Assembly (NCBI GenBank): GCA_029863275.1
Contig: JAOTVS010000001.1
Coordinates: 45,736-109,735 of the forward strand
Reading direction: 5' to 3'
Source of the DNA: Candidatus Nitrosopumilus sp.
GTDB taxonomy: Archaea; Thermoproteota; Nitrososphaeria; Nitrososphaerales; Nitrosopumilaceae
Length of the DNA stretch: 64,000 bases
The notes beneath the pieces are model-generated. The model was not told where the DNA came from, searched no databases, and saw nothing but the letters and a program-made list of their open reading frames with translations. Shown here piece after piece: positions 10,193 to 12,471 of the stretch; within the stretch, counting starts at the first letter, position 1; every line of letters starts with the position of its first letter. The position numbers and the translations under genes are program-made.

Positions 10193-10546
10193 GTGGATAG
10201 AATAAAACGCCTTTCATATGAAGTACTAGAAAAACACAAATCAAAATTTGGGGAAAATTTTACCGATAATAAAAAATCATTAGATCAGGTAGCCATAGTT
10301 CGTTCAAAGGGATTAAAAAATCAAGTTGCAGGTTACATCACTAATTTAATAAAAAAGGAAAATCGTGAAACTGAATTTAATTTATCAAAAGCAACCGCCT
10401 CCAACGATGAAGATAATTTAGTAGAGGATAATACCAAAATTAAAACAGAAATTTCGCCAAATTCGGAAGAAAACGTTATTGAGGTAGGTGTTGATACTAC
10501 AGATGTTCAAGAACCAAATGAACCTTCTGAAGAAAAAACAGATTAA
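10193..10546 (+). CDS. rps17e: Small ribosomal subunit protein eS17 (S17e) with acidic C-terminal extension
   Basis: MDRIKRLSYEVLEKHKSKFGENFTDNKKSLDQVAIVRSKGLKNQVAGYITNLIKKE matches S17e; GTG start; about 55-aa acidic tail. Confidence 0.85.
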   Translation: MDRIKRLSYEVLEKHKSKFGENFTDNKKSLDQVAIVRSKGLKNQVAGYITNLIKKENRETEFNLSKATASNDEDNLVEDNTKIKTEISPNSEENVIEVGVDTTDVQEPNEPSEEKTD

Positions 10547-10588: not shown

Positions 10589-11362
10589 ATGATAACAATA
10601 AAACTGATAGGTGGTGCAAAAAAGTCTTTTTCAACTGATCAGATTGAATTAGACCTAGACAATATAACAATTGAAGATCTTCTTGAAAAACTTTTAGACA
10701 TAAAACCAAAAAATACTGCCACTCTTGATACAAATAATATTTTGATTGCAGTTAATGGAGCAGACTCGTCAGCTATGGATGGAAGAATGACTCGTATTAA
10801 CAATAATGATGTGATTAGTATTATTCCAATAATTCATGGAGGATCAAATAAAAAAATTATGATTACTGTTGGAAAAAAATCAATTCAAATCTTGGAAATA
10901 AAAGGAAATGAAAAAATTGATGTTTCTTTTCTTGATGATCTTAGAAAAGAATTCCCAAATATCAAGTTGCAAGGAATTTCAAGTAATTTTATATTAAATT
11001 TAAATCATTTAACAAAAATTCTTACAATATCATTAGTTTCAGACAAAGAAAATATTTTACTTTCAAATAAAATTGAAACTGATATTTTATTGCGTTTTGC
11101 AGCTACAAAACAAATTTCTGATGCAATATATTTTGCAGGAATTAAGCCAAAAAAAAATTTTATCTTGATTGCAATTGGCAATAAAATAATATTAAATAAC
11201 CTTCATCAAAAATTAAATCCCTTAACTACTGAAATTTTTTCAAAAGATAATTCATTATTTTTGAAAAAACATTTTCAAATTACCAAAAGACACTTAGATT
11301 CTGTCTACTCCAAAAACCCCTTGGAAGATATTTTAATTGAAAAAGGAGCAGTTTTAATCTGA
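10589..11362 (+). CDS. MoaD/ThiS/Urm1-like beta-grasp domain (ends HGG at residues 83-85) fused to Cgi121-like KEOPS subunit
   Basis: Residues 1-85 MITIKLIGGAKKSF...NNNDVISIIPIIHGG; residues 91-257 with Cgi121-like ETDILLRFAATKQISDAIYFAGIKPKKNFILIAIG. Confidence 0.8.
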   Translation: MITIKLIGGAKKSFSTDQIELDLDNITIEDLLEKLLDIKPKNTATLDTNNILIAVNGADSSAMDGRMTRINNNDVISIIPIIHGGSNKKIMITVGKKSIQILEIKGNEKIDVSFLDDLRKEFPNIKLQGISSNFILNLNHLTKILTISLVSDKENILLSNKIETDILLRFAATKQISDAIYFAGIKPKKNFILIAIGNKIILNNLHQKLNPLTTEIFSKDNSLFLKKHFQITKRHLDSVYSKNPLEDILIEKGAVLI

Positions 11363-11875
11363 TAAACTTCTTTTAGTTTTTTCTACACTCAAAACATCCG
11401 ATTTTCTAAGAACGGAAATACCAGTCTTTGCTCCCAAAATTTCTATTAGAATAATTTTATCTGGATTTTCCAATGATACTTTATTTTCAATTTTATTGGC
11501 AATTTTGGTAATTAAATCCTGACTTGACATATTGGAGTTTCTTTTTTCAATTGATATTCGATATGTATCTCCTTTTGGTATCAAATCTCTTAATTCTGAA
11601 ATTACTTTTTCAATATCTTCAATTATTGTTTCTGAAATTTTTTGAATAGGGATGATTCGAAGACAATATCTGATGCTCCAAGGTTCATCAAGAATTAATT
11701 CCTGGATTTTTGCTACTACTACGATTGGGTCTAATTTTGTATTTACTGTTAGAATTCCGGACATGTTGGTGATTGTTATTTTAGGTTCGGGATCTCCTAA
11801 AATCCCCAAGATTTTATTAATTTCTTCTTGTGTTTCTGGTTCCAAATGCCGTGCACAAGTAACTATTAAGTTCAA
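11354..11875 (-). CDS. THUMP-domain RNA-binding protein
   Basis: THUMP-like YRISIEKRNSNMSSQDLITKIANKIENKVSLENPDKIILIEILGAKTGISVL. Confidence 0.8.
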   Translation of the reverse strand: MNLIVTCARHLEPETQEEINKILGILGDPEPKITITNMSGILTVNTKLDPIVVVAKIQELILDEPWSIRYCLRIIPIQKISETIIEDIEKVISELRDLIPKGDTYRISIEKRNSNMSSQDLITKIANKIENKVSLENPDKIILIEILGAKTGISVLRKSDVLSVEKTKRSLSD

Positions 11876-12471
11876 AAAAATTCTATAATCTCCTCTTTTT
11901 TTAATGCCCCTATTCTATGGATAATTGGTTTGCCTTGGTCTATTTCTAAAATTGTTGATTCACCACTAGTTTTGATATTGCCATCATCTACAAAAATATC
12001 ATAATCCTTTATGTTTTGGTAACAATCATTTGATTTCGTAAAAGAATTCTCTCCAGAAATATTTGCACTAGTTCCAACAAGAAATTTAGAATTTTCCAAA
12101 ATATTCAATAAACATTGATTGTTTGGAACTCTGATGGCTATCTTGTTCTCTAAATTTAAAGATTTTTTCAATCTTTGATCTTTTAATTTTAATATTAAAG
12201 TTAGAGGTCCAGGCCAAAACTTATTGGCAATTTTTTTAGAATCCTTATCAAATTCTACAATTTTTGATGCCTCATCAAATGAATATGCTAATACAGGAAA
12301 TGGTTTTGTTTTAGATCTTCCTTTAATTTGATAAATTTTGTCTACGGATTTTTTTTTGTAAGGATCACATCCGATACCATAAACTGTATCTGTTGGAAAT
12401 ACTACAATTCCACCATCTTTGATAATTTTGGTTGCTTTTTCTATTCCTTCTTTATCACATTTTACTTTCAA
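11872..12471 (-). CDS. L-threonylcarbamoyladenylate synthase (YrdC domain)
   Basis: GGIVVFPTDTVYGIGCDP, KGRSKTKPFPVLA, KFWPGPLTLIL, GTSANISGE. Confidence 0.93.
   Translation of the reverse strand: MKVKCDKEGIEKATKIIKDGGIVVFPTDTVYGIGCDPYKKKSVDKIYQIKGRSKTKPFPVLAYSFDEASKIVEFDKDSKKIANKFWPGPLTLILKLKDQRLKKSLNLENKIAIRVPNNQCLLNILENSKFLVGTSANISGENSFTKSNDCYQNIKDYDIFVDDGNIKTSGESTILEIDQGKPIIHRIGALKKEEIIEFF

Follow-up and report, generated by a model that had tools for sequence, protein, structure and literature searches.

A ubiquitin-like domain fused to Cgi121

The window analyzed is a stretch of 64,000 nucleotides from Candidatus Nitrosopumilus sp., one of the ammonia-oxidizing archaea. Within it lies a single intact open reading frame on the forward strand (10589..11362, with an ATG start and a TGA stop) encoding a protein of 257 amino acids, in which a ubiquitin-like (Ubl) domain ending in HGG is followed by Cgi121, a subunit of the tRNA-modifying complex KEOPS. 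The gene for ribosomal protein S17e (10193..10546, forward strand, Pfam score 66 bits) is directly upstream, ending 42 bp before the fusion gene. The convergent neighbor encodes a THUMP-domain protein (11354..11875, reverse strand, Pfam 37.5 bits), and beyond it on the same strand is the gene for YrdC/Sua5 (11872..12471, Pfam 174 bits), which makes the t6A precursor. A preliminary description of this DNA had placed the reading frame and named all three neighbors correctly, and we find that the last two are on the strand opposite to the fusion.

Relatives were sought in a class-wide sample of genomes, with the presence or absence of each gene called by profile searches. Ninety-seven of the genomes belong to the same family as that of the window, denoted f1, which is probably Nitrosopumilaceae and whose named relatives are metagenome-assembled genomes of Nitrosopumilus and Nitrosarchaeum. 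The family provides 78 fused homologs. Of the 78 f1 loci tested for S17e, 77 have it directly upstream of the fusion, and the THUMP gene was recovered at 80 of 80 f1 loci. The same reading frame occurs in dozens of independent genomes, ruling out an assembly error, and conservation of the architecture throughout f1 excludes chance.

The N-terminal domain (residues 1–85, 10589..10843, forward strand) matches the Pfam ThiS profile with 37.2 bits (cut-off 22.5) and the Urm1 profile with 21.9 bits, just above the cut-off of 21.8. An AlphaFold model of residues 1–86 has a pLDDT of 85.8 and a pTM of 0.73, and its best matches by Foldseek are Urm1 and archaeal SAMP1, then MoaD, with a probability of 1.00. 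Profiles, model and structural comparison therefore agree with the 85-residue beta-grasp domain proposed earlier. It has the beta-grasp fold of the Urm1, SAMP, MoaD and ThiS proteins. Its Gly-Gly is invariant but internal, and exposure of it would need cleavage of the chain.

The Cgi121 domain (residues 98–257, 10880..11359, forward strand) scores 131 bits against the NCBIfam Cgi121 equivalog NF011465 (cut-off 40) and 28.9 bits against Pfam CGI-121 (cut-off 25), in agreement with the original assignment. Residues Q175 and I176 align with Gln71 and Ile72 of Methanocaldococcus jannaschii Cgi121, which contact the CCA of tRNA (PMC7718258), and both are invariant in f1, so that the predicted tRNA-contact residues are in place. 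Structure prediction upheld the Ubl fold and was less informative for the second domain. The AlphaFold model of the full protein, made from a four-sequence alignment, is poor (pLDDT 53), and its top Foldseek match is Cgi121 of KEOPS with weak significance (E 0.058). We have therefore relied on the model of the Ubl domain only.

The HGG junction is invariant

The HGG sequence occupies codons 83–85 (10835..10843, forward strand), with a predicted cleavage site after Gly85. It is invariant in 78 of 78 f1 fusions, and no homolog lacking the Gly-Gly was found among them. Changes were inferred on the gene tree of these 78 sequences. The codons of Gly84 and Gly85 have undergone approximately 37 and 30 changes respectively (about 67 in total), all of which are synonymous. 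The next 12 or so residues form a linker (residues 86–97, 10844..10879, forward strand) in which the protein varies most, with a mean of 23 inferred amino acid changes per site compared with 15.4 and 16.9 in the two domains; it is also a region of low confidence in the full-length model. The residue that follows HGG is serine in 42 fusions and alanine in 18, and in the remainder it is R, G, N, T, K, E, I or L. The absence of drift in HGG argues against simple relaxation after fusion, which would allow drift.

Fused, split and tailed forms of the Ubl gene

Matches to the Ubl domain were found in 96 of the 97 f1 genomes, nearly all within reading frames of fused length. Fusion is thus the rule in the family and not a peculiarity of this organism. 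Nor is it universal in the class; in most other families the Ubl is a separate gene just ahead of that for Cgi121, and fusion recurs here and there. In the survey that the preliminary description had proposed, HGG is kept in every f1 fusion examined, and the fusion is the rule in one family only. Outside f1 the separate Ubl either ends exactly at HGG or continues for 1–12 unrelated residues, the tails including S, L, CL, CI, MVGV, AQ, QY, RD and QEAYGSVK among others. Every Ubl found adjoining Cgi121 retains HGG.

Fusion to Cgi121 is seen again in family f8 (genomes G148, G167 and G169, although two members of that genus, G158 and G171, have separate genes) and in f22 (G086 and G095). In G046 of family f11 (locus L052) the Ubl is joined after HGG to a domain that we label phosphoribosyltransferase-like, by eye and not from a profile search, and Cgi121 is the next gene. 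There is also a split within f1, where in G083 (locus L079) the sequence reads HGGA and a stop codon followed by an in-frame TTG, leaving HGG intact. In G145, also of f1, the frame shifts just past HGG, perhaps through a sequencing error.

To judge from the sequence, the two-residue tails of f22 come from overlap of the Ubl stop codon with the Cgi121 start, and the Gly-Gly codons lie at the position expected for a Shine-Dalgarno site. At loci L079 and L091, too, these codons are at the would-be Shine-Dalgarno site of the Cgi121 start, which may offer a path by which coupled genes become fused.

JAMM proteases

The preliminary description had suggested a search of the genome for a JAMM protease and an E1 enzyme, and both are present. 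There are two JAMM proteins. JAMM-a (G000:C8; L060 3817-4221, reverse strand) has the sequence HSHPDSKAYPSNTD and an intact catalytic motif, with the E, H, H, S and D residues all conserved. Its closest solved structure is Pyrococcus furiosus JAMM1 (E 1.7e-26), which was crystallized with SAMP2 according to the description of entry 5lda. The JAMM-a profile has a match in 96 of the 97 f1 genomes, the exception being G156. JAMM-b (G000:C14; L061 3399-3794) belongs to a separate clade; it is widespread and keeps its motif HSHPxxxxxPSxxD. It adjoins a gene for a 428-amino acid coiled-coil-like protein.

Outside f1, JAMM-a is found in 18 of 20 genomes with a tailed or fused Ubl and in 16 of 28 in which the Ubl is tailless (Fisher one-sided p 0.014), and by family in 7 of 10 against 1 of 8 (p 0.023). 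The tallies were compiled by hand and both comparisons are confounded by ancestry, so that the co-occurrence is suggestive only. JAMM-a was not found in two genomes with the fusion, G156 (95% complete, approximately 140 contigs) and G028 (90% complete, approximately 350 contigs), and no JAMM of any kind was found in G101 (66% complete), which has a tailed Ubl. These absences may be gaps in assembly. In G075 the Ubl is tailed and the sole JAMM is of the Mec type. In the JAMM phylogeny the Mec-type proteins of L056 and L057, whose genes adjoin cysteine-synthase-like genes, were kept apart from JAMM-a, as related but distinct.

Some genomes lack a detectable E1

A match to the ThiF family is present in the genome of the window and in 84 of the 97 f1 genomes overall, and is mostly the Ubl-E1 protein. 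In our genome this protein (G000:C69; L001 1393-2733) contains the only other ThiS-family domain found; it was recorded by Makarova and Koonin as Ubl-E1-TBP (PMC2948915). The profile search gave no ThiF-family match whatever in 13 f1 genomes that are 92–99% complete (G020, G021, G116, G123, G133, G138, G144, G149, G155, G162, G165, G180 and G181). A search with the E1 protein of our own genome agrees for G020 and G021, the only two of the 13 that it covered. All 13 retain the fusion, its HGG and JAMM-a, and most keep the widespread NcsA-like PP-loop ATPase. Loss of the E1 looks to have been repeated, since its presence and absence require about ten changes on the tree of the fusion gene, which is not a species tree.

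The species without a detectable E1 have no standard means of activating the Ubl, unless an enzyme of another kind does so. As these 13 genomes keep the fusion, the HGG and the JAMM, it is probable that HGG marks at minimum a site of cleavage and is not only an E1-activated tail, and cleavage most simply explains its invariance there. MoaE was found neither in our genome nor in 96 of the 97 f1 genomes. This rules out a role in molybdopterin synthase, and the Ubl is therefore not a partner of the MoaD kind.

A proposed model for processing of the fusion protein

We think it likely that the Ubl-Cgi121 protein is a precursor that is cut by JAMM-a after HGG. One product would be a Urm1/SAMP-like protein, and the other Cgi121, which would take its place in KEOPS for t6A synthesis. 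Translation would yield Ubl-HGG-linker-Cgi121, JAMM-a would cut after Gly85, and the freed Cgi121 would enter KEOPS. Where an E1 exists, the released Ubl might in addition be activated, as a sulfur carrier or modifier; where there is none, HGG would have to act at minimum as a site of cleavage, or in another way that does not depend on E1. From a comparison of genomes, in which HGG stands unchanged beside a rapidly evolving linker, fusion, splitting and tailing recur, and JAMM-a persists with the fusion even where the E1 is missing, we infer that cleavage occurs, that JAMM-a performs it and that it releases working Cgi121. For some f1 members lacking an E1 a more specific reading, less likely than not, is that the Ubl might be a leader cut off Cgi121 by the JAMM and no longer a conjugated modifier or sulfur carrier; ubiquitin-like processing would then be an E1-independent step in the maturation of a protein of the essential t6A machinery, or perhaps a cis-chaperone step.

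The preliminary description had offered two interpretations, and the outcome is partial support with some extension. One was a modifier released by proteolysis, which is favored by the constancy of HGG in 78 of 78 fusions, by variable or replaced sequence downstream and by a near-universal JAMM1-like protease. The other, a fixed link between the two functions, is not favored, because the unit repeatedly fuses, splits and gains tails while HGG stays.

A related proposal is that the protein stays uncut, with the Ubl as a permanent extra domain of Cgi121 and HGG as a structural contact within KEOPS. Nearly all of f1 has both domains in one reading frame, the total length varies little, and the order S17e-fusion-THUMP is stable. 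Against this, the Ubl of most other families stops precisely at HGG, and in others HGG is followed by unrelated tails or the phosphoribosyltransferase-like domain. The linker evolves faster than either domain, and the split at L079 (HGGA and a stop codon) left HGG intact within f1 itself. We regard a permanent fusion as unlikely. A somewhat stronger case can be made that HGG is explained entirely by activation of the Ubl by an E1, as a sulfur carrier or modifier in the style of Urm1 or SAMP2 acting in tRNA thiolation or sampylation. The nearest structural matches of the Ubl are Urm1 and SAMP1, most f1 genomes including our own have a ThiF-family protein, the NcsA-like ATPase is widespread, and a link to tRNA thiolation was proposed by Makarova and Koonin (PMC2948915). 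However, the 13 genomes with no detectable ThiF keep HGG, and most of them keep the NcsA-like protein as well; the lack of MoaE removes the molybdopterin role, and the E1 has a fused Ubl of its own. As the sole explanation E1 activation is therefore rather doubtful, although it concerns the time after release and so is partly compatible with the precursor model.

The other alternatives concern how a separate Cgi121 might arise. JAMM-b, or another protease, might make the cut after HGG, and JAMM-b has both the distribution and the intact motif for this. Yet JAMM-b is also present in genomes without JAMM-a in which the Ubl ends exactly at HGG (G045, G048, G051, G059 and G060), and JAMM-a resembles the SAMP protease PfJAMM1. 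We consider this alternative improbable. Alternatively Cgi121 might be translated separately from an internal start. There is indeed an in-frame ATG at 10859, 16 nt after a GGAGG (10838-10842), just as had been described, but the spacing is long and the GGAGG is simply the two glycine codons. Only 4 of 58 relatives have Met91, and in 2 of 78 an SD-like motif is followed by a start codon at a distance of 4–10 nt. Given that the ATG is not conserved we reject separate translation, which seems very improbable indeed. Processing by JAMM-a remains the reading that we prefer.

Precedents for processing after Gly-Gly

In eukaryotes a ubiquitin fold ending in Gly-Gly lies ahead of a translation-related protein in the ubiquitin-ribosomal protein precursors, as it does here. 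In eukaryotes the cutting is mostly the work of cysteine deubiquitinases, whereas we propose a JAMM metalloprotease, and the two kinds of precursor are not homologous as fusions. If the model is correct, a group of marine archaea that is among the most abundant would produce a subunit essential for tRNA modification in the form of a ubiquitin-like precursor, in parallel with these proteins, and a widespread archaeal JAMM protease would gain a defined natural substrate. The lineages that keep Ubl, Gly-Gly and JAMM in the absence of an E1 would then be a natural experiment on functions of the ubiquitin fold that are free of activation.

Closer parallels exist in MoaX and the MoaD-MoaE fusions, which have an N-terminal MoaD or Ubl domain, an internal Gly-Gly and a C-terminal partner, both proteins being freed after the Gly. 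MoaX of Mycobacterium tuberculosis is cut between Gly82 and Ser83, with a requirement for Gly81 (PMC4326299), and its Gly-Gly is followed by Ser as it is here. HvJAMM1 cuts SAMP1-MoaE exactly after the Gly; the uncut fusion is inactive, and deletion of GG leads to no detectable cleavage in vivo (PMC4443979). DRJAMM similarly cuts and activates MoaD-MoaE (PMC8832034). Counting against our model, HvJAMM1 reportedly does not need the diglycine for cleavage of linear fusions in vitro, as cited in PMC8832034. The present system differs from these in that the partner belongs to KEOPS, the genome has no MoaE, and cleavage is a prediction. Caldiarchaeum subterraneum, with its CsJAMM and CsRpn11, makes SAMP and ubiquitin precursors with residues beyond the Gly-Gly that are removed by a JAMM protease, and one of its JAMM proteins processes the SAMP precursors (PMC6043591). 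The extension of ubiquitin is a short tail there, whereas here an entire functional protein follows, and an E1 is missing from some lineages.

The fusion as such was already known. Makarova and Koonin reported it in 2010 in all the Thaumarchaea then sequenced, noted that it seems to be cotranscribed with S17 in Nitrosopumilus maritimus, and proposed either that SAMPylation regulates KEOPS or that there is a connection with tRNA thiolation (PMC2948915). Theirs is the same gene, with Ubl and Cgi121 adjoining S17 in N. maritimus and other marine Thaumarchaeota. Cleavage does not enter the main-text discussion of that paper, and our search, which covered the open-access literature, brought up no subsequent work on cleavage of Ubl-Cgi121. 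In comparison with the 2010 account, we find that fusion is the rule in only one family, with more than one origin elsewhere, and we add the invariance of HGG, the co-occurrence of JAMM-a and the occasional absence of an E1. As far as we have searched, the precursor reading, the recurrence of fusion and the independence from E1 are new.

Other ubiquitin-like fusions

The Ubl-E1 protein has an internal Gly-Gly too (VAGGSG), which is kept in all 27 homologous loci for which the junction was read, and might be another JAMM substrate. At a locus in G040 (L057 566-3336) a cysteine-synthase-like gene lies together with a JAMM and a Ubl-E1-rhodanese fusion, an arrangement that resembles the mycobacterial CysM-Mec-CysO.
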